From the IMG/VR virus record IMGVR_UViG_3300032753_000133, positions 1-28,505 of that record: a DNA stretch of 28,505 nucleotides, one strand, 5' to 3'. Each line of letters opens with the position of its first letter. The first letter of the stretch is position 1. The translations under genes were made by a program, and so were the position numbers. Positions 5,914 through 28,429 of this stretch are shown here, in pieces. Below the pieces are notes generated by a model, which made no database searches, was not told the DNA's origin, and saw only the letters and a list, made by a program, of their open reading frames with translations. This DNA is from a virus.

Positions 5914-8466
5914 ATGCCAATTTTTGCTGAAAATGCGCCCAAATACTGGGCTGCTGGACTCCCTGTGTTTCCTGTTCGTGGCAAGCGCCCCGCGATCTTC
6001 GCTTGGCAGGGTCTGAGCGACCGGCTGCCGAACGATCATGAGAAAGCGTCCTGGTTGAAGGACTTCGAAGAGCTGAATCTGGGTCTGGCCTGCGGTCAGC
6101 AGTCGGGAATCGTCATCTTGGATATCGATACCAACGATACTCGGTTGATCCAGATCATCGACGATATGCTTCCTGTCAAATCCCCTTGGTTCAAGATCGG
6201 CAAGAAGGGTAAATCCTACGCCTTCCAGTTCAACGGCGAGAAGACCTATCAGATCAAAGACCTCACCGGTGGCATGATCTGCGAGCTTCTGGGGCCGAAA
6301 CGTCAAACAGTTCTCCCACCGTCGATCCACCCGGATACACAACTACCCTACACGTCGAACTGCGAACTTCTGGACGTGCTCGACCAGTTGCCGAAGCTGC
6401 CCGCGAACTTCGAAGTCGCCCTTCGAGCAACCTTGGTTGAGAAGGGTGATGTGGAGTTGTCCGTCCGTGGCTACTCGAACATGGTCACATGGGTCGCCGC
6501 TGGAAGTCGGGATAGCCAGTACACCTCAATCTGCGGACACTATGCCTTGGCAGTCGCCAAGGGTCAGCTTCCTCTGGTCGAGGCCATCCATGCGGTGGAG
6601 GCGTGGCCTGGAACCTTCACCGAACAGGTCGATGGCGATGCCTTGACAGGTGAAGAGGGCGTCAAGAAGCTCATCAGGTTCCTGGTCAGGGACGTTAAGG
6701 AACGTGGCCATGTGTTGAAGCCTCGATGGGACCTGGGGTTGAGCGAGGATGATAAGGAGAAGCTCGGCCTGGACCTCGATCAAGGCGATATGGAGCAATC
6801 CTTCGAAGAGTTGATGCTCCGTATCGAGTTGGAGTTGGATGACCCCAACAAGGGTGACAAGGATAAAACGAAGCACTTCACCTTATCGTACAGGCAGGAC
6901 ACGACCAAGAACATCCTGATCTCCATCAGTCGCAGCATAACCTTGGTTCCTCGTCAGGTCGATCAACTGCTGCACCTGATCAATCACTACAATGGCACTC
7001 GGACCAGTCTGGCTGCCTTTAGGAAGGAGATCACACAGCTTCGAAACATAGGGTTGGTGGGAGACAATCACACAGACATCGCCGAGGACATGCTCCGCAA
7101 GGTCGGTGATGTTCGATTTCACGAGGGTCATCTATACGAATACGAAGGGTCCTTCTGGCAAGAGACCGAGGAAGTGAAATACCAATCCTACGTGATGACC
7201 AATTATCGGAACATGCCAGCCTGTAAGAAGAATACGGACTACCATTCGGTCTACAAGACCTTCAAGACGTTGGCGACCAAGGAACTGAAAGATGTTTCCG
7301 AGGTGGGGAACCAACGTGGTGTGGCCTTCTCGAACGGCTACCTTACCCAAGACGGTGTCTTGAACATTCACAAGCCAGGGTTTGGTAACACCTTCTGTCT
7401 TCCTTATCGGTACAAGAAGGATCTGGCTGGTCGGGAGAATGCTCCGAAGTTCTGGGAGTTCTTAAAATACGCCTGGGGTGAAGACGCCGACTTCGAGCAG
7501 AAGGTCCTGGCACTGCAAGAGGCCATCTGCTGTACCCTGATGGGCAACGCAGCCAAGATGTCCCGTGCTTTCCTTCTCTACGGAGTTGCCCACTCAGGTA
7601 AATCCGTGTTGCTGCGGATCATCTCCAACCTGTTGCCACCTGAAGGGATCAGCGCGGTTTCCCCAGAGAACTGGGCCGACAAATTCCTACCAGCTCAATT
7701 GTCAGGTAAACTGCTCAACATCGGTGGGGAGTTGTCCGAACACAAGAAGATCGATGGCCAAATGTTCAAAACCATCGTTGAAGGCGGCGACATCACCGCT
7801 CAACATAAGAACCAAGCACCTTTTAAGTTCAATCCCGTCTGTGCTCATTGGTTCGCGTCGAACCATCTGCCTAAGTCCGATGACACCTCCCAAGGCTTCT
7901 ATCGTCGTTGGCTGATCTTCGGCTTCGTCAGGCCATATCCCGAGGAAACACGGAACGTCAATCTGGTTGAAGAGGTCCTTTCGGAGGAACGTGAAGCCAT
8001 CGTGGCGTGGGCACTGGAGGTGAAGGAAAGGCTGGCTAAGGTGGGAAGCTACTCGATACCTCCATCGCATGAGGAGACGATCATCGAAATGATGTCCGCA
8101 TCGGACAGCATCTTCCGTTTTCTCCGAGCCTGTCAGGTGATGAAGGGGTCGAATCTGACAGGCAAGACTGGAAAGAATGGAAACTCAACCTTGCCCTTTA
8201 CACCGGAGCAAAAAGCCTTCCTCGGATACCAGAGTTTTACCTTAAAGATGCATGTACGGCCTGTTTCGTATCCTACCTTCTCGAGGAGTATGCAAGATCA
8301 TTCAAGGCTGATGGGGTATTCAGTAGTTATGCCGAGTTCAGAGAACGGCTACCGGGAGCTTGGTTATCTTGGCCTCATTCTCCCAGGTGTGAGTGTGAGT
8401 GTGGAGGCGGGAACGGGGGCGACGGGGGCGACGGGGGCGACGGGGGCGACGGGGGCGACGGCGTGA
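5914..8466 (+). CDS. Primase-polymerase / SF3 helicase (D5-like), apparent 3' frameshift
   Basis: This is a bifunctional replication initiator. The N-terminus (about 1-190) is a primase-polymerase domain of the archaeo-eukaryotic primase superfamily, with PVFPVRGKRP (16-25) and the metal-binding LDID (69-72). The C-terminal half is a superfamily 3 helicase: Walker A GVAHSGKS (557-564), Walker B LLNIGGE (600-606) and motif C with FASN (647-650), as in P4/D5 primase-helicases. From about residue 750 the annotated frame turns low-complexity and ends in five Gly-Ala-Thr triplets. The -1 frame is open from 8073 to a stop at 8586-8588, has no start codon of its own, and reads like ordinary helical protein. 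One extra G in the run at 8145-8148 would join them, so the intact gene probably ends at 8588. Confidence 0.88.
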   Translation: MPIFAENAPKYWAAGLPVFPVRGKRPAIFAWQGLSDRLPNDHEKASWLKDFEELNLGLACGQQSGIVILDIDTNDTRLIQIIDDMLPVKSPWFKIGKKGKSYAFQFNGEKTYQIKDLTGGMICELLGPKRQTVLPPSIHPDTQLPYTSNCELLDVLDQLPKLPANFEVALRATLVEKGDVELSVRGYSNMVTWVAAGSRDSQYTSICGHYALAVAKGQLPLVEAIHAVEAWPGTFTEQVDGDALTGEEGVKKLIRFLVRDVKERGHVLKPRWDLGLSEDDKEKLGLDLDQGDMEQSFEELMLRIELELDDPNKGDKDKTKHFTLSYRQDTTKNILISISRSITLVPRQVDQLLHLINHYNGTRTSLAAFRKEITQLRNIGLVGDNHTDIAEDMLRKVGDVRFHEGHLYEYEGSFWQETEEVKYQSYVMTNYRNMPACKKNTDYHSVYKTFKTLATKELKDVSEVGNQRGVAFSNGYLTQDGVLNIHKPGFGNTFCLPYRYKKDLAGRENAPKFWEFLKYAWGEDADFEQKVLALQEAICCTLMGNAAKMSRAFLLYGVAHSGKSVLLRIISNLLPPEGISAVSPENWADKFLPAQLSGKLLNIGGELSEHKKIDGQMFKTIVEGGDITAQHKNQAPFKFNPVCAHWFASNHLPKSDDTSQGFYRRWLIFGFVRPYPEETRNVNLVEEVLSEEREAIVAWALEVKERLAKVGSYSIPPSHEETIIEMMSASDSIFRFLRACQVMKGSNLTGKTGKNGNSTLPFTPEQKAFLGYQSFTLKMHVRPVSYPTFSRSMQDHSRLMGYSVVMPSSENGYRELGYLGLILPGVSVSVEAGTGATGATGATGATGATA
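8415..8459 (+). repeat. Five tandem copies of GGGGGCGAC
   Basis: Five perfect 9-base units lie at the 3' end of the primase gene. They encode Gly-Ala-Thr repeats in the annotated frame and Gly-Gly-Asp in the -1 frame. The unit is a multiple of three, so copy-number change would not alter either frame. Confidence 0.95.
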
Positions 8467-8606: not shown

Positions 8607-8721
<115 letters not shown>

Positions 8722-8722
8722 G

Positions 8723-8953
8723 TCAGGATGGTAACATCCTGACCTCGATAGTTAGAACCCCGGAATCGTCCACCTGATTTACAGAGTCTGGAATGACCTC
8801 GACGGCGATTCTGGTTCCAGGCAGATAGAACCTCGAAGGTATCTGCTGGAGGTTCGGTATCGGCTCCAGCGAAGGAGCCGGGTGATTGTGGAAGGATCGG
8901 CCACATGTGGGACAGGTGGGACAGGTGGGACAGGTGGGCTGGTGCTTGATCAT
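8723..8953 (-). CDS. Small Cys-rich protein with PTC repeats, 76 aa
   Basis: The N-terminus carries four consecutive Pro-Thr-Cys triplets ending in CPTCGRSFHNH, giving stacked CxxC pairs plus His residues that could bind zinc. The rest is an unremarkable beta-rich tail ending TIEVRMLPS. The triplets come from about three copies of a 9-base unit (GTGGGACAG, 8907-8933), a further minisatellite in this region. The ATG at 8953 overlaps the stop of the Rha-type gene as ATGA, so it is third in the regulatory operon. No family was recognised. The number of Cys pairs may vary between relatives because of repeat slippage. Confidence 0.6.
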   Translation of the reverse strand: MIKHQPTCPTCPTCPTCGRSFHNHPAPSLEPIPNLQQIPSRFYLPGTRIAVEVIPDSVNQVDDSGVLTIEVRMLPS

Positions 8954-16759: not shown

Positions 16760-18832
16760 ATGAAAATATCTTCTAATAATGCCATTTCCTTCGAGACCAA
16801 CACTCAGGACAATGAAACAAGAGTGGCAACCATCAATTCGAACAACACCATGGCCTATTGGCACATGGTGGACACGCTCTACACCAACAAGCAGAAGGCA
16901 ATCGTCCGGGAACTGACGGCCAACGCTTACGATGAGCATGAGAAGTTCAGCATCACCCGCCCACCCCAAATCCTGGGTCCGACCCAATTGGAACCTTCCC
17001 TGATCATCCGGGACTTTGCCAAGGGTATGTCACACGAGATGGTCATGTCTCAGTATATGACGCTGTTCTCCTCGACCAAGACCTTGGATAACGAACAGAG
17101 AGGCGGATTTGGTTTGGGTTGTAAGACGCCGTTTGCTTATACCTCCCAATTCGCTGTCGAGTCCTACCAGAACGGCATCGTCAGCTCCTACGTGATCTAC
17201 CGAGGTCAAGACCCCAACTCCTCGTCTCCCCAGGAAGTCCCGCTGATCACCCATATGGGCGACTTCATCACCGACGAACCCGATGGTTTGAAGGTCTCGA
17301 TCCCGATTGAGGAGAAGGATTTTTACAAGTTCAACAACGAGATCAAGCAAGTCTGCTGGAGGTTCAATCCACAGCCTGAGACCAATGTTGAACTGGCCAA
17401 GCCCGAGACCGTCATCTCGACGGAGATCTTCTGCCTTCGCCGAGGCAACACAGGGGGCCGAGGCAACGCCATTGTCGGCAACATTGCCTACAGCTTGGAT
17501 GCCTCCGCTCTGGGACTCCCGTATGACAGTCCCCTTTACGGAATTGTCAATTCCCCCATTGATATCTACCTCAGCATCGGCGAAATCTCTCCGACGCTGA
17601 ACCGTGAGGCAGTCTCGTACAAGCCTGAGACAATCAAGAACATCCTGACCAAGTTGAGCCTTGTTCAGGCGACCCTACGCCAGACCGTTCAGGACAAGAT
17701 CAAGACTGCTCCCACGTTGTGGGAAGCCAAGTTGATGTACAAGCGGGATATTCCCGAGGACATCAAGAGTGTCCTGTCCAATTCGCCGATCACTTGGAAT
17801 GACGAGTCAGTCAAACAGCAACCCAACGTGGAAGGCATTTCATGTGTCCGAATCTACGGAAAGGACCCAAGTCGTGTGACTTCGCCCAAACTTCATTGGT
17901 CGAGGGACTCCTATGTCAGTCTCGAAAAGACCAAGATCTTCCTCTTGCCGGATGACCTCTACTGGTCCTCGACCGAATTTTGGCGGCGTCTGAAGCACAA
18001 TGGTTTGGGGTCCAAGTATTCAGACATTCTGTTGATCAAGGGAACCTCCACGGATTTCCAGGTTGCTCTGGATCAATTGGGTTATCCGCCGATTGAGATG
18101 ACCATCAGCGCGGAAACGCTTCCTCTTCCTCCCAAGCCTCCCAGGGCTCCCCGAGCCTCCTCATCTTCCTCTTCCCCGAGGAAACCTCCTGTGAAGTTCA
18201 AGATCTATTCCTACGGCAGGCTTACCGAGGTCGATGTGGACCTCCAGGCTGGAGGGTATTACGTCCTCACCTCGAATAATGACCCACAGGCTCCCGAGAA
18301 TTGGAAGCATTATGTAGGTCACCCGGAGACTTTGAATAATGCCTGTCAAAGGCATTTTGGAAAGACCCTAGTCTTCGTCACAAAGGCTCAAGCATCCAAG
18401 GTCGTCAACGATCCGAATTGGAAGCAAGTCCATCACGCTCTTGAAGCTCACCTGACACAGCTTCTGAAGAACCCTGTGTATTCGATCAACAAGCAACTCA
18501 GGGGCATTCTTTCGCAGCAGTCCACAGCAGTTGACAGGTTCGTCGATTTCTTCCTTCAGAGCCAATCGTTGCCTCTGAAGCCGAATAAGCCTTTCGGTCG
18601 TTACCTCAAGGAACGTAATCGCCTGAAGAACATTCTCACTCCGACAGAGAATATCGACATTCTCCTCGCCCTTCTTGAAACCAGTATTCCTGCTCCCAAG
18701 AAGCCAATCAAAACCAATATTGAAGAACTTCAAGACTTGGTACTCGAAACCTATCCTCTAATGTCTGAGGCAAGGTCTTTTAACGCATCCGCCCATTGGA
18801 TACAGTATATCAATGGTGTAGACTCTCTCTAA
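16760..18832 (+). CDS. rIIA: rIIA-like protein with GHKL ATPase domain
   Basis: The N-terminal 210 residues form a GHKL (gyrase/Hsp90/histidine kinase/MutL) ATPase: N-box VRELTANAYDEH (49-60), G1 box IRDFAKGMS (83-91) and G2 box GGFGLGCKTPFA (115-126). The phrase LTANAYDEH with SSTKT (104-108) is that of T4 rIIA-type proteins. A Pro/Ser-rich linker (about 455-475) precedes a C-terminal region of unknown fold. T4 rIIA and rIIB are membrane-associated proteins that protect against lambda rex exclusion and premature lysis; the biochemical role is unresolved. The 690-residue length is close to T4 rIIA. An rIIB homologue follows after 15 bases. Confidence 0.88.
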   Translation: MKISSNNAISFETNTQDNETRVATINSNNTMAYWHMVDTLYTNKQKAIVRELTANAYDEHEKFSITRPPQILGPTQLEPSLIIRDFAKGMSHEMVMSQYMTLFSSTKTLDNEQRGGFGLGCKTPFAYTSQFAVESYQNGIVSSYVIYRGQDPNSSSPQEVPLITHMGDFITDEPDGLKVSIPIEEKDFYKFNNEIKQVCWRFNPQPETNVELAKPETVISTEIFCLRRGNTGGRGNAIVGNIAYSLDASALGLPYDSPLYGIVNSPIDIYLSIGEISPTLNREAVSYKPETIKNILTKLSLVQATLRQTVQDKIKTAPTLWEAKLMYKRDIPEDIKSVLSNSPITWNDESVKQQPNVEGISCVRIYGKDPSRVTSPKLHWSRDSYVSLEKTKIFLLPDDLYWSSTEFWRRLKHNGLGSKYSDILLIKGTSTDFQVALDQLGYPPIEMTISAETLPLPPKPPRAPRASSSSSSPRKPPVKFKIYSYGRLTEVDVDLQAGGYYVLTSNNDPQAPENWKHYVGHPETLNNACQRHFGKTLVFVTKAQASKVVNDPNWKQVHHALEAHLTQLLKNPVYSINKQLRGILSQQSTAVDRFVDFFLQSQSLPLKPNKPFGRYLKERNRLKNILTPTENIDILLALLETSIPAPKKPIKTNIEELQDLVLETYPLMSEARSFNASAHWIQYINGVDSL

Positions 18833-18847
18833 GAAAGGAACATTACT

Positions 18848-19660
18848 ATGGCAAGCAAAACTTCTTTCATGATGTCCGCCAAAGGGGCATCTATTTTCAT
18901 TGACGGCAAGACTTATGTCTTCAGTCATTCCCATACCAATTTCGAGAGAGCCTGTCAGGCCGCTCGGGACAAGGAGTGGGACATCATCCCCGAATTGGTC
19001 AGCGTCCCCGAGGTCATTCAGAAATTGAACGTCGGCAACCTGATCTTCAAGAACAGGGTGCTCCACTACAACGACCGCCCTGTCGCCAGCAGCTATGTGA
19101 TCGAGAAGCTCCTCCAAATGCTGGACACCAACCAGGATTACCAACCTTTGGCGAGGTTCGTTGAAAACCTCTTCGCCAACCCCTCCGAAGACTCTCGTGA
19201 TGAGCTGTACGGCTTCCTCGAACGCAGCAGCCTGCCGATCACCACGGACGGCCACTTCCTGGCCTATAAGCGGGTCCGTGGAGACTACAAGGATTGCCAC
19301 TCCAAGAGCATCGACAACAGCGTCGGGCGTTTCATCTCAATGTGCCGGGATGATGTTGACAGTGACCGCAATCAGGTGTGCTCACATGGTCTGCATGTCT
19401 GCTCGAAGGAGTATCTCAAGAACTTCAGCGGTGCTCGGATGATGATCTGCAAGGTCAACCCTCGTGATGTGGTGTCGGTCCCCAAAGACTACGGCAACAC
19501 GAAGATGAGGGTCTGCGCCTATCAAGTCGTCGATGAGATGTTGGAGGAGTACATCCCGGAGTTCGAAGAGAACGCTGTGTACGAAGACGACGACCAGCCC
19601 TTTGTCCCACACAAGGTCGGCTTCCTCTCCAGGCTCCGAGCCTTCTTTCCCAACAACTGA
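18848..19660 (+). CDS. rIIB: rIIB-like protein
   Basis: The central and C-terminal parts contain the rIIB signature order: ARFVENLFANPSEDSRDELY, FLERSSLPITTDGHFLAYKR, DNSVGRF, CSHGLHVCSKEYL, and VNPRDVVSVPKDYGNTKMRV. These mark the conserved domain shared by T4 rIIB and many phage rIIB-like proteins. The 270-residue length fits (T4 rIIB about 312). The start has AAGGAA 8 bases upstream, 15 bases after rIIA. The two proteins are expected to work together. Finding the pair in a prophage with integrase and repressor is less usual than in lytic phages. Confidence 0.88.
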   Translation: MASKTSFMMSAKGASIFIDGKTYVFSHSHTNFERACQAARDKEWDIIPELVSVPEVIQKLNVGNLIFKNRVLHYNDRPVASSYVIEKLLQMLDTNQDYQPLARFVENLFANPSEDSRDELYGFLERSSLPITTDGHFLAYKRVRGDYKDCHSKSIDNSVGRFISMCRDDVDSDRNQVCSHGLHVCSKEYLKNFSGARMMICKVNPRDVVSVPKDYGNTKMRVCAYQVVDEMLEEYIPEFEENAVYEDDDQPFVPHKVGFLSRLRAFFPNN

Positions 19661-22899: not shown

Positions 22900-23159
22900 A
22901 CCGCACGATCCACTTCTTCACGACAGGTCCGACAGAGCAGTTCGATCAAGGCGCTCTGTCGGTCTGCCGCAAGCCGATCCTCATCGACCCGCAGTGGGAC
23001 ATGATCGACCTCCTCGTCCAAGCAAGACACTTCGACTCAAGAGGTCAGGCAAAGAAGAACGGCTGGAAACCTGAGCCGATACCTAAAGGGATCACGAAGC
23101 TCGATGTGGGTAAGGACTCCAATGGTTCGAGGAAAGCAATCTTCATCTTCAAGGAATGA
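22896..23159 (+). CDS. Hypothetical protein, 87 aa, GTG start
   Basis: The GTG start at 22896 overlaps the ligase stop (GTGA). The product (RTIHFFTTGPTEQFDQGALS, WDMIDLLVQARHFDSRGQAK) has no recognised domain. Its stop is 4 bases before the pentapeptide gene. Confidence 0.6.
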   Translation: MNRTIHFFTTGPTEQFDQGALSVCRKPILIDPQWDMIDLLVQARHFDSRGQAKKNGWKPEPIPKGITKLDVGKDSNGSRKAIFIFKE

Positions 23160-23163
23160 GCAA

Positions 23164-24054
23164 ATGACAATTACAACGCAGAATTTACCGGAGATACTTG
23201 AGAAACACCTCAAATGGCTGCGCTCCGAAAGCGGTGGCGAGCGAGCGAACTTGGGCAGCGCGGACTTGCGCAGCGCGAACTTGGGCGGCGCGAACTTGTA
23301 CGGCGCGGACTTGCGCAGCGCGAACTTGGGCAGCGCGAACTTGAGCAGCGCGAACTTGGGCAGCGCGGACTTGCGCAGCGCGAACTTGGGCAGCGCGGAC
23401 TTGCGCAGCGCGGACTTGATCTGCGCGGACTTGGGCGGCGCGAACTTGCGCAGCGCGAACTTGGGCAGCGCGAACTTGATCTGCGCAAACTTGGGCGGCG
23501 CGAACTTGCGCAGCGCGAACTTGCGCAGCGCGAACTTGGGCAGCGCGGACTTGCGCAGCGCGAACTTGGGCGGCGCGAACTTGCGCAGCGCGAACTTGCG
23601 CGGCGCGAACTTGCGCAGCGCGAACTTGATCTGCGCGGACTTGGGCGGCGCGAACTTGCGCAGCGCGAACTTGGGCAGCGCGAACTTGATCTGCGCGAAC
23701 TTGGGCGGCGCGAACTTGCGCAGCGCGACCTTGAGCTGCGCGGACTTGGGCGGCGCGAACTTGCGCAGCGCGAACTTGGGCAGCGCGACCTTGGGCGGCG
23801 CGACCTTGGGCGAGAAGGTGGGTAAGCTCGTTAGTGGCCGTTGCTTCTTTCAAGCGGGGCCGATAGGCTCCCGCAACGATTACGTCCTGTTTTTCAAGAC
23901 GGAGAAGGGTATCTTCGTTCGTGCTGGATGCTTCTTTGACTCAATCACCGTTTTTGCAAAAGCGGTCAAAGAAACCCACTCCGGGACAGAGCACGGAGTC
24001 CATTACAAGGCCGCGATTGCTTTGGCGAAGAAGATGTTTGCGGAGGCAAAATAA
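23164..24054 (+). CDS. Pentapeptide-repeat protein, 296 aa
   Basis: After a short helical N-terminus (residues 1-24), about 38 consecutive A(N/D)L-x-x repeats run from about residue 25 to 218, the signature of a right-handed quadrilateral beta-helix. The DNA of the repeats is almost identical (15-base units of the type AACTTGCGCAGCGCG), so the array expanded recently. The C-terminal 78 residues form a separate domain (GRCFFQAGPIGSRNDYVLFF, GIFVRAGCFFDSITVFAKAV, YKAAIALAKKMF) often attached to phage repeat proteins of this kind. Such helices can mimic DNA (as Qnr proteins do for gyrase), but a target cannot be named. The start has a weak site (GGAATGAGCAA). Confidence 0.85.
   Translation: MTITTQNLPEILEKHLKWLRSESGGERANLGSADLRSANLGGANLYGADLRSANLGSANLSSANLGSADLRSANLGSADLRSADLICADLGGANLRSANLGSANLICANLGGANLRSANLRSANLGSADLRSANLGGANLRSANLRGANLRSANLICADLGGANLRSANLGSANLICANLGGANLRSATLSCADLGGANLRSANLGSATLGGATLGEKVGKLVSGRCFFQAGPIGSRNDYVLFFKTEKGIFVRAGCFFDSITVFAKAVKETHSGTEHGVHYKAAIALAKKMFAEAK
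23240..23816 (+). repeat. 15-base tandem repeat array encoding pentapeptides
   Basis: About 38 units alternating between GCGAACTTG and GCGGACTTG cores with (C/G)GCAGC, GGCGGC or ATCTGC linkers. Near identity across units shows recent expansion and predicts length differences among relatives. The opposite strand reads an AAQVR repeat, which is a by-product. Confidence 0.95.
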
Positions 24055-25472: not shown

Positions 25473-25640
25473 ATGCAAGTCAAATGGGAAGCTGATGACA
25501 TTAAGCCGGGACGCCGGATCGGAAAACCCGGTCAAGCCGAGGTCTGGTTGATCGGGCATCGTCCGACTGCAAATGGAAATGAATATTCTCTAATCAGTCT
25601 TTCGGATGGAGGAACCTTTGAATTTGAAAGGGTGGAATGA
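25473..25640 (+). CDS. Small beta-rich hypothetical protein, 55 aa
   Basis: AAGGAG sits 6 bases before ATG 25473. The product (IKPGRRIGKPGQAEVWLIGH, YSLISLSDGGTFEFERVE) looks like a small beta barrel. No family named. It overlaps the next gene by 4 bases (ATGA). Confidence 0.6.
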   Translation: MQVKWEADDIKPGRRIGKPGQAEVWLIGHRPTANGNEYSLISLSDGGTFEFERVE

Positions 25641-25837
25641 AAATGGTCACGATGCCAGATGAAACATTAGAAGGTGCCTTGCAGCAGGCCGAGCAACTCG
25701 GAATCCGAAAGGCACTCGCCGCCTTGGCGTCTGCGCCGAAATCGCCGGATGCAGACAAGCTGTTCTCTTGGGGATACGAAACAGGTCTATTGGCTGCGTT
25801 TGGACTTGTCGAGGGCTTGCTTGAAAGGGTGGAGTGA
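25637..25837 (+). CDS. Small helical hypothetical protein, 66 aa
   Basis: It overlaps both neighbours. The product (ETLEGALQQAEQLGIRKALA, YETGLLAAFGLVEGLLERVE) is acidic and helical with no recognised domain. Confidence 0.55.
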   Translation: MKMVTMPDETLEGALQQAEQLGIRKALAALASAPKSPDADKLFSWGYETGLLAAFGLVEGLLERVE

Positions 25838-26016
25838 TGATCAACTTTGTCGAGGCTGTAGAACTTGCCCGCAAGGCAGCGTTAGAGGCGTTCAGGAATG
25901 GCGAGAGGGAAGGCTTGAGCAAAGCATTGAAGGCCGTTCAAGAGCACCCGCCCAGTGCACAACGGATTTCAATTATCGAAGCGATTGAGGCATTGATTGA
26001 GGAGGTGGAATGTTGA
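25837..26016 (+). CDS. Small helical hypothetical protein, 59 aa
   Basis: Start at ATG 25837 (TGATG overlap with the previous stop) after GGTGGAG; a GTG three bases earlier is the alternative. The product (INFVEAVELARKAALEAFRN) is acidic and helical and resembles its upstream neighbour in style (both end LL/IE-ERVE/EVE), so the pair may be diverged duplicates. No family recognised. Confidence 0.55.
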   Translation: MINFVEAVELARKAALEAFRNGEREGLSKALKAVQEHPPSAQRISIIEAIEALIEEVEC

Positions 26017-26261
26017 CCGAAAATCTTACAGACTTAGCTCTGGACGGCATCTTAGCTCAAGCAAGGGCCGGGCATCCTGTGCATCTGGCTGCCATTGCCT
26101 TAGTCCAAGAAGTCAGGAAATTGCGAAAGGAGAAGGCCGACCTGAAGAAGACGTGTTTGACAGCCGTCGTTGAAGTCCTGGAAATCACAGACTATCAATA
26201 CGAGGACGGCATAGCTATCCTGGCCTCTGTGATGTTCGCAGGCGAGGATGAGGAGGCATAA
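26010..26261 (+). CDS. Small hypothetical protein, 83 aa
   Basis: It overlaps the previous gene by 7 bases, with GGAGG 6-7 bases before the ATG. The product has a helical core with a basic stretch (EVRKLRKEKADLKKTCLTAV). No family recognised. Its TAA directly abuts the next ATG. Confidence 0.55.
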   Translation: MLTENLTDLALDGILAQARAGHPVHLAAIALVQEVRKLRKEKADLKKTCLTAVVEVLEITDYQYEDGIAILASVMFAGEDEEA

Positions 26262-26603
26262 ATGATCGTAGCACGAATTTCGAAAGCATTCTTCCAACTT
26301 GAAAACGCAGGCCGTGTTTTTGCCAAGATCGGCGAGGGCACCCCGACTGTCAACGTTCCGACAACCGAGAGCATCGAAACCGTATCGGGCCGCATGGCGG
26401 GGATTGTGATCAACCACACCCGATACAAGGCCGGTTTGAGCTTGAAAGGCTGTGACGCTCGCTTTGGGTTCAACGGCCCAGTTTCCCGCGAGGCTGGCAA
26501 GCTCAAAATGAGAGATTACCACGAGGCTTGGAAAGAGGGCGGAATCGAATACGCGAATAGCGTTGTGCCGGAAATTCACTTGGGCGATGAATTGATGCCT
26601 TAG
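26262..26603 (+). CDS. Hypothetical protein, 113 aa
   Basis: It starts immediately after the previous stop, with a ribosome site (GAGGAGG) inside that gene's end. The sequence mixes basic and hydrophobic residues (RYKAGLSLKGCDARFGFNGP) and shows no known motif. It lies near the end of the cassette beside the CRISPR-like RNA unit, so it is a candidate anti-defence protein by location only. Confidence 0.55.
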   Translation: MIVARISKAFFQLENAGRVFAKIGEGTPTVNVPTTESIETVSGRMAGIVINHTRYKAGLSLKGCDARFGFNGPVSREAGKLKMRDYHEAWKEGGIEYANSVVPEIHLGDELMP

Positions 26604-26618
26604 ACTCGGAGAAAAGAA

Positions 26619-26882
26619 ATGTCCATCAAAGTCATCCGCGCAGCCAAGATTTCCAAAATCGGCGGCAACTCCAACAGCTTTTACAACATGCTGGACTACA
26701 TCCCGGCTGATGTCCGCAAAGCTCTGTCCTCCAAACAAATCGCGGTCATAATCGACCGGCTATGGGACGCTTGTGGTGCATCAAAAGCCATCGCTGCGCG
26801 TGAGTCCCTGGAAAACGGATTTGTTTGGGATGCCAAGAATAATCGGGCAGTAGATTTGCGAGAAGGTAGTGTCCAGCATTAA
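26619..26882 (+). CDS. Hypothetical protein, 87 aa
   Basis: The product starts MSIKVIRAAKISKIGGNSNS and has a helical middle (VRKALSSKQIAVIIDRLWDA). GGAG lies about 9 bases upstream. Its final codons and TAA stop lie in a strong hairpin (26869-26891), so this gene and the CRISPR-like unit share a terminator-like element. No family recognised. Confidence 0.55.
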   Translation: MSIKVIRAAKISKIGGNSNSFYNMLDYIPADVRKALSSKQIAVIIDRLWDACGASKAIAARESLENGFVWDAKNNRAVDLREGSVQH

Positions 26883-26891
26883 GCTGGACAC
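26869..26891. terminator. 9-base hairpin shared by the last cassette gene and the CRISPR-like RNA
   Basis: GTGTCCAGC (26869-26877) pairs perfectly with GCTGGACAC (26883-26891) across ATTAA, which contains the gene's stop codon. Transcripts from either side meet here. There is no good T-run on either strand, so it may act as an RNA end stabiliser or weak terminator. Confidence 0.6.
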
Positions 26892-26910
26892 CGAAGCCAT
26901 GACAAAGCTT

Positions 26911-27005
26911 GTTTCGATCCACGCCCCTTTCGGTGCGACTGCTTGCGACGAATTGGCGCAAAACCCTTAAGTCTATTGTTTCGATCCAACGGGCCAAGGC
27001 CCGAC
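26911..27005 (-). CRISPR. Type I-C-like repeat-spacer-repeat unit (mini-array or RNA anti-CRISPR)
   Basis: On the plus strand two copies begin GTTTCGATCCA (26911 and 26978) and end CGAC (26939 and 27005), giving repeats of 29 and 28 bases 67 apart. Read on the minus strand, the transcribed sense of type I-C, each is GTCG-stem-(G)TTGGATCGAAAC-like. The 11 terminal bases TGGATCGAAAC are identical. The stems differ but both fold: CGCACC-GAAA-GGGGCG with one mismatch, and CGGGC-CTTG-GCCCG. The spacer between them is 38 bases (26940-26977). Type I-C repeats are usually 32 with 34-36 spacers, so the 67-base period fits. No cas genes are present. A promoter and a terminator-like hairpin flank the unit. 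Confidence 0.6.
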
Positions 27006-27012
27006 GAAGGCA

Positions 27013-27040
27013 ACTATAAACATTTTTTGAGAGACCGCAA
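27013..27040 (-). promoter_or_regulatory. Promoter for the CRISPR-like RNA
   Basis: On the minus strand TTGCGG (27040-27035), 16 bases, then TATAGT (27018-27013). Transcription would begin about 7 bases on, near 27006, one base before the first repeat at 27005. The tRNA-Pro promoter in this window has the same design (TTGCAC-N16-TATAAG), which supports use by the host polymerase. Confidence 0.5.
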
Positions 27041-27202
27041 GGGTGATGAACGCTTCTGACCTTGATGAACAATACTCGGTGATTCTGTAAGGAGTCGAGC
27101 GACTACAACGGCACCCTTAGACCTTAGACCTTAGACCTTAAGTCAATACCTTATGCACAGAATAACAATCTGTTGAGCCAGAAAACAAGCTGGCCGCAAA
27201 AT

Positions 27203-27326: not shown

Positions 27327-28334
27327 ATGGGCAAAATTAACCTACCATATCTGAATACCTTCCAGGATAGGTATCACATCACGAGGTATTATTATCGTCG
27401 TGATGGAAAGAATATTCCACTCAGTGCAGAGGACCTCGCAGGAGACTATGTCAAGGCTCACTTGTCCTTCGAGACTTCTCCGAAAGGACAGTCGAAGGTT
27501 ACGTTCGGTGAACTCGTAGACACCTACCTTCGATCCAACGCCTATGAGTGGTTGAGGCCAAGCACCCAGTGGCAGTACCAGTGGCACCTAAACCAAGCGG
27601 TGGAGGACTTCGGAGACAAGTCAGTCTCCGAGCTTACGAGGAAGCTGTTGTTGAACCACAGGGACAGTCTGCTCAAGACGCCTGTCAAGGCCAACGCTCG
27701 GCTTCGTATCCTCAACACTCTCCTCAACTTCGCCGTGGAGAGGGAGCTGATGGAGATCAACCCGATCAGGGGCTGCAAGTCCATCAAGGTGAACTCTGAT
27801 GGTTGGAAGCAATGGTCGGATGAGGCTCTGAACCTTTTCAAGGCAGAAGCCAAGGGAAGCCCACGCATCGCTTTTCACCTTGCCCTATACACAGGTCAGA
27901 GAAGGGCTGACGTTCTAGGTATGAAGTGGAGGGACATCTCAAAGGGCATAGTCAGCGTCAGACAACAAAAGACAGGGGTATCTCTTTCGATTCCTGTCCA
28001 CCCACTCCTGGAGGCTGAGTTGGTCAACTTACGCTGTGTTGGCCAACTGAATCGACATATAGTGTGTAGATTAGATGGCAAGCCTTACACACCAGATGGC
28101 TTCGGCATGGTCTGGGAACGTGAACAAAAGAGAGTGGGGGTCTTCGGAAATCCTTTCCATGGGCTGAGAAAGAATGCGGTTTCCGCATTGTTCGAAGCTG
28201 GTTGCACACCTCAAGAAGTTATGGCCATCACCGGCCATACGACCTTGGAGATGATCAATCACTATGGAAAAGGAGCAAATCAGAAACGTCTCGCTCAGGC
28301 AGCTATGGACAAACTTTTGACTAAAGAGGGTTAA
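27327..28334 (+). CDS. int: Tyrosine site-specific integrase, 335 aa
   Basis: It catalyses integration and excision of the prophage at the adjacent tRNA. The C-terminal catalytic set is complete: R192 (TGQRRADVLGMKW), K215 (QQKTG), H278-x-x-R281 (FHGLRK), H304 (TGHTTLEM) and nucleophile Tyr313 (INHYGKG). The core-binding domain covers about residues 58-145 (TFGELVDTYLRSNAYEWLRP). The N-terminus is short and partly basic, an arm-binding domain being expected there. It reads toward the 3' end of tRNA-Pro, 18 bases away. No excisionase gene was recognised. Confidence 0.95.
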   Translation: MGKINLPYLNTFQDRYHITRYYYRRDGKNIPLSAEDLAGDYVKAHLSFETSPKGQSKVTFGELVDTYLRSNAYEWLRPSTQWQYQWHLNQAVEDFGDKSVSELTRKLLLNHRDSLLKTPVKANARLRILNTLLNFAVERELMEINPIRGCKSIKVNSDGWKQWSDEALNLFKAEAKGSPRIAFHLALYTGQRRADVLGMKWRDISKGIVSVRQQKTGVSLSIPVHPLLEAELVNLRCVGQLNRHIVCRLDGKPYTPDGFGMVWEREQKRVGVFGNPFHGLRKNAVSALFEAGCTPQEVMAITGHTTLEMINHYGKGANQKRLAQAAMDKLLTKEG

Positions 28335-28352
28335 TTGACACAACAAAAACAA

Positions 28353-28385
28353 TGGTCGGAGTGGGGAGATTCGAACTCCCGGCCC
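28353..28385. other. Likely attachment site (phage-host junction) in the tRNA 3' end
   Basis: Integrases of this kind recombine within the 3' part of a tRNA gene, and here the integrase lies directly beside that end. The duplicate copy should lie at the other prophage border, outside the window, so the core cannot be measured here. Confidence 0.55.
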
Positions 28386-28429
28386 CTAACTCCCGAAGCT
28401 AGTGCTCTACCAGGCTGAGCTACACTCCG
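28353..28429 (-). tRNA. tRNA-Pro (anticodon CGG)
   Basis: The 77-base gene folds as a complete cloverleaf. The acceptor stem CGGAGTG pairs with CACTCCG, followed by discriminator A and an encoded CCA (28355-28353). The D arm has AGCTCAGCCTGGTAGAGCA, the anticodon loop is TTCGGGA with CGG at 34-36, and the T loop is TTCGAAT. The gene is intact, so prophage integration restored its 3' end. Confidence 0.97.

Follow-up and report, generated by a model that had tools for sequence, protein, structure and literature searches.

A cas-less, type I-C-like repeat-spacer-repeat unit beside a phage integrase gene as a possible RNA anti-CRISPR decoy in two-repeat form

Cas5 is the processing enzyme of type I-C systems, and RacrIC1 is a published RNA anti-CRISPR (Racr) of this subtype (PMC10651486). 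In type I-F, a non-targeting crRNA was also found to relieve interference (PMC10651486). The mini-arrays described from viruses carry the repeats of their hosts (PMC11656645), and guides of the CreA type require a target match of about nucleotides 1–5 and 7–11 beside a TTC PAM. SRUFinder drops solitary repeat units (SRUs) that are matched above 70% by their own flank, and a mini-array is called by the same program only at 90% identity between the repeats. The locus described here was found in an IMG/VR virus record, which was analysed over its whole stretch of 28,505 nucleotides (the window).

The unit, on the minus strand, is located upstream of the integrase gene and points away from it, and the layout proposed by the first-pass annotation was borne out. 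It comprises a 28-nt I-C-like repeat with a 6-bp stem (psi-repeat 1 or R1, GTCGGGCCTTGGCCCGTTGGATCGAAAC, 27005–26978), a 38-nt spacer-like segment (26977–26940), a 29-nt I-C-like repeat (psi-repeat 2 or R2, GTCGCACCGAAAGGGGCGTGGATCGAAAC, 26939–26911) and a 9-bp hairpin representing a possible 3′ end (26891–26869). R1 has one extra T between the stem and the 11-nt handle, and R2 has a GAAA loop, an A·G mismatch in the stem and an intact handle. The two direct repeats are 70% identical. They had been taken to be identical only in their last 11 bases; the common 3′ tail in fact spans 13 nt (TGGATCGAAACAA), and GTCG, CC and GG are shared as well. The repeat period is 67 nt, which is usual for I-C (median 65–67 in real arrays).

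The kinship with type I-C was assessed using a covariance model, for which eight genuine I-C repeats were taken from array-bearing genomes. When all positions of the window were scored, two places only were significant, namely R2 (30.0 bits, E 3e-7) and R1 (20.6 bits, E 3.5e-4), with the third-best place at E 0.43, all of these E-values being approximate owing to a short calibration. The GTCG start, the stem of ~6–7 bp and the TGGATYGAAAC handle of I-C repeats are all present, though R1 and R2 are 28–29 nt long compared to 31–32 nt in I-C repeats, and their identity to all the array repeats compared was at most 81%. The I-C label of the training repeats is backed by genome G314, in which an array with the identical handle TGGATCGAAAC follows a complete I-C operon (cas3-cas5c-cas8c/csd1-cas7(cas7c)/csd2-cas4-cas1(cas1c)). 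The two significant matches and the handle shared with this array thus support the type I-C likeness that had been suggested for the repeats. The I-C locus of another genome, G312 (L064, G312:C32), has a related repeat with a different handle, which ends TGAGTTGGAAC, not TGGATYGAAAC. About 6 kb from this locus is a tRNA-Pro, one of those that best match the tRNA-Pro of the window.

Repeats with the same trimmed hairpin recur in other viruses. An exact-pattern search for trimmed-loop I-C repeats, from which a recurrent 26-mer and poor matches were discarded, yielded at least 13 distinct other viral contigs (L066–L071, L078–L082, L085, L087, L092, L093) with I-C-like repeats of 29–30 nt that scored 29–39 bits with the covariance model. 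Some of these repeats are intergenic, others overlap ORFs, and none is part of an array. Two contigs have more than one (two in L080; two and a weaker third in L093), dispersed over several hundred bases, and a two-repeat unit at array distance was found in no other viral contig. Between R2 and the solitary repeat of L067 (GTCGCCCCGAAAGGGGCGTGGATTGAAAC) there are two differences over 29 positions, and the GAAA loop is common to both. At stem pairs 3–6 of the viral repeats, 48 of 56 cells were Watson–Crick and none of 5000 shuffles was as good, a statistic that covers free pairs only, part of the handle and stem being fixed by the search pattern. Both R1 and R2 also form a stem, as had been proposed (R2 with its mismatch), but the strong covariation read into this pair is unsupported: evidence from R1 and R2 alone is weak, because only one stem pair shows a compensated change. 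In 299 proteobacterial and 385 + 75 further alphaproteobacterial genomes (about 760), no array was seen whose repeats measure 30 nt or less. Because at least 13 viral contigs have the trimmed hairpin and no such array was found, the trimming seems, as far as exact-pattern searches go, to mark phage mimics and not arrays. As for the discarded matches, about eleven of the 28 were one recurrent 26-mer without an I-C stem (GTCGATACTGCGRCGTGGATTGAAAC; L073–L075, L077, L083, L084, L088–L091), which is repeat-like and likely coding sequence, while L072, L076 and L086 were poor matches.

The setting is that of an integrated phage, in agreement with the first-pass annotation, as the window ends in a tyrosine integrase gene (27327–28334, plus strand; PHROG integrase, E 1.6e-46) and a complete tRNA-Pro(CGG) identified by ARAGORN (28353–28429, minus strand), the likely attachment site. 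No Cas protein was recognised among the about 30 window ORFs scanned, which upholds, for these ORFs, the earlier statement that no cas genes lie in view. The adjacent small ORFs had been called a cassette typical of anti-defence loci, a claim that found no support: none of the five (25637–26882) matched Pfam, PHROGs or PADLOC, and the HTH gene preceding them is an ordinary regulator. Relatives of the integrase occur in alphaproteobacterial phages, Azospirillum phage Cd among them, the best including Azospirillum, Sinorhizobium, Agrobacterium, Komagataeibacter and Paracoccus phages. The exact 77-nt tRNA-Pro is in no genome searched. Its best matches (92% identical over the tRNA) fall in two groups, placed with the Azospirillum cavernae genome G005 by a class-level draw, which we infer to be alphaproteobacteria, and I-C arrays ending GTGGATCGAAAC were found in both (G381, G390, G314). 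The tRNA and the protein relatives thereby suggest a host and, with it, a putative matching I-C system. No relatives of the phage were found in viral contigs via the integrase or via the ORF next to the unit, which converges on it and encodes 87 aa of no known family (26619–26882, plus strand). The terminase has relatives of only 22% identity in viral contigs and of ~40–45% in Achromobacter-, Caulobacter- and Azospirillum-type (pro)phages, and the unit was not found in these (pro)phages. Weak single matches in G004 and G005, without a proper stem or handle, were taken as chance.

Some further features of the window were recorded. Positions 16760–19660 encode an rIIA-like protein (PHROG 612, E 6.5e-85), and an adjoining 270-aa ORF is a candidate rIIB-like gene. 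The phage, which bears an integrase and is apparently temperate, has a terminase similar to those of the Achromobacter JWF-like and Caulobacter Seuss phages. The early region holds a 316-aa pentapeptide-repeat protein (23104–24054). Short tandem repeats occur at the end of the primase gene in 9-bp steps (8413–8460) and after it in 7-bp steps (8631–8730, about 12 copies).

The explanation that we favour, at a probability of about 0.5, is that the unit is a cas-less, phage-borne mimic of an I-C repeat-spacer-repeat and acts as a Racr-type decoy in two-repeat form. A short RNA would offer one or two I-C-type hairpins with the 11-nt handle to the Cas5c of the host, which would bind and probably cut at the base of the hairpins. 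With the exact Cas5c cut position known for I-C repeats, the predicted product is crRNA-sized, consisting of the 11-nt handle, 38 nt of filler and an 18-nt 3′ hairpin (67 nt in total, starting UGGAUCGAAAC). Such a product may occupy Cas5c, Cas7c and Cas8c and keep them away from real crRNAs, so that the phage would be spared. What was observed is the I-C likeness of the repeats, their spacing, the lack of recognised Cas proteins in the scanned ORFs and the recurrence of the trimmed repeat as solitary units in other phages; transcription, binding, cleavage and inhibition are steps that we infer. In support of the decoy are the two repeats that are significant against an independent model, the handle that they share with an array beside a full I-C operon in one of the groups with the best tRNA-Pro match, the strongly covarying trimmed hairpins that occur outside arrays in other viral contigs, including the near-copy of R2, and the lack of a credible spacer target. 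Precedent is given by RacrIC1 and by the effect of non-targeting crRNA in type I-F (PMC10651486).

Several observations count against the decoy. One repeat without a spacer would suffice for it, yet both handles and the handle-to-handle distance of 67 nt have been preserved, as would be expected if a full crRNA were important. The host and its I-C system are, moreover, deduced from tRNA and protein relatives only. The promoter sequence proposed for the unit (TTGCGG-N16-TATAGT, 27040–27013, minus strand) is present, and its –10 element ends 7 nt before R1, but it is a weak candidate: it matches the consensus at 8 of 12 positions, is not reported by a standard scan at 9/12, and an equally good one is expected at that position by chance in 3–8% of cases. 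The 3′ hairpin folds at –16.2 kcal/mol, has no T-tract and is not a scored terminator; its loop holds the stop codon of the convergent 87-aa ORF, and the hairpin thus belongs equally to that gene. When the 138-base RNA was folded, as the first-pass annotation had suggested, the two repeat hairpins were absent from the lowest-energy structure, which is long-range (–47.1 compared to –40.8 kcal/mol for the local fold). An Rfam search returned nothing relevant.

The first-pass annotation had offered decoy and guide as alternatives, and these proved to be the right pair. As a guide, the unit would be a mini-array that directs the I-C complex of the host against another mobile element, with repeats that have diverged only where processing tolerates it. 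Such a role would fit the preserved handle and base of the stem, the period of 67 nt and a product the size of a crRNA. It would also fit the spacer, whose 38 nt fall within the range observed for I-C (33–40 nt, median 34, in 159 spacers). The proposed comparison of the spacer with phages and plasmids was carried out and gave no credible target. No match came from 50,697 records of phages or 72,556 of plasmids, matches of 18–20 nt in viral contigs failed to extend (19–25 of 38 positions), and related phages, the candidate host groups and the rest of the window held no credible match, a result that is confined to the collections searched and is no proof that a target does not exist. Two matches of 20/23 in a Thermosynechococcus MAG were rejected, as they lie in ordinary chromosomal genes with no extension and no PAM. 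A missing target is common even among functional spacers, which weakens this point as an argument for the decoy. The repeats also speak against a guide, since those of published viral mini-arrays are the host's (PMC11656645), whereas R1 and R2 are identical neither to one another nor to any array repeat in the comparison. The decoy is favoured over the guide because the mimic repeat recurs and no target was found, and we regard the guide as rather unlikely.

A second alternative is that the unit encodes a psiR1-psiS-psiR2 RNA similar to CreA or CreR, which Cas5c would mature into a full-size, divergent guide. Rather than merely blocking Cas proteins, this RNA would direct the host I-C Cascade, by pairing over a short seed, to repress or switch a promoter of the phage or of the host, such as one in the lysogeny control of the phage or that of the host cas operon. 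Two divergent, degenerate repeats around a spacer, of which the first is the more diverged, constitute the anatomy of creA (PMC8501985, PMC9458426), and R1 is indeed more diverged than R2 by covariance-model score. This anatomy, together with the retention of both handles and of the array spacing, provides the strongest facts against a pure decoy. However, no target with a creA-type seed and TTC PAM was found in the fetched cas loci or in the window, where the best TTC-flanked run was 4, compared to a mean of 5.7 for shuffled spacers. The upstream sequence at 27136–27147 matches positions 2–13 of the spacer at 11 of 12 bases, but lacks spacer position 1 and the TTC PAM. With no such target in the window or in these cas loci, a regulatory guide seems distinctly unlikely. 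The stretch around this match (27115–27147) consists of tandem CCTTAGA repeats beside CCTTAAGTCAAT, the sequence that resembles the 5′ part of the spacer (CCTTAAGTCTAT), and is possibly an operator or an integrase arm-type site.

The unit could also be what remains, after decay, of an I-C array from a host or a plasmid, transported by the phage with no function. Terminal repeats of arrays are often degenerate, and R1 and R2 differ from each other as well as from known arrays. The differences, however, are located in the stems, the loops and their junction and spare both 11-nt handles. Though shortened, the two hairpins still pair, and the same trimming is seen in solitary phage repeats and in no array of the proteobacterial genomes surveyed. 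We therefore consider decay improbable. A chance resemblance to I-C repeats can be dismissed as very improbable indeed: the sequences are short, and an 11-mer repeated directly within 100 bp is not rare alone, but a specific match to the I-C handle combined with the GTCG-stem is rare, and two independent significant model matches on the same strand at the exact I-C spacing of 67 nt make chance very unlikely.

Compared with described systems, the unit resembles the Racrs and solitary repeat units exemplified by RacrIC1 (Camara-Wilpert et al. 2023, PMC10651486) in being phage-borne, cas-less and a mimic of repeats of the same subtype, but it differs from them in having a spacer flanked by two repeats that are not identical, and hairpins trimmed to 28–29 nt. 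A strict solitary repeat unit has no second repeat within 100 bp, whereas here one follows at 67 nt. With virus-borne mini-CRISPR arrays (PMC6858448; PMC11656645) it shares the repeat-spacer-repeat order, the array spacing and the lack of cas genes; unlike in those arrays, its two repeats are not alike and neither is the same as any of the array repeats compared, and no target of the spacer was found. Since R1 and R2 differ, at most one of them could match a host array. The two divergent psi-repeats flanking a psi-spacer, with psiR1 the more diverged, recall CreA and CreR (PMC8501985, PMC9458426, PMC12737573), from which the unit differs by its location on a phage, with no adjoining cas genes, no recognised toxin and no seed-plus-PAM target in view.

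A published Racr survey was concerned with near-identical single repeats (≥90%), and divergent pairs and trimmed mimics would lie outside its filters. The trimmed 28–29-nt repeats fall below the 90% identity cut-off of SRUFinder, and by the stated rules of that program the unit would probably be accepted neither as an SRU nor as a mini-array. The trimmed I-C hairpin, present in at least 13 viral contigs, is a simple pattern by which mimics of this kind can be searched for. Should the two-repeat unit work, one could use it to ask directly what phages block Cascade with, bare repeats alone or an entire dummy crRNA. The unit is an I-C repeat mimic, neither a strict solitary repeat unit nor a mini-array in the published sense, and it probably works like a Racr.
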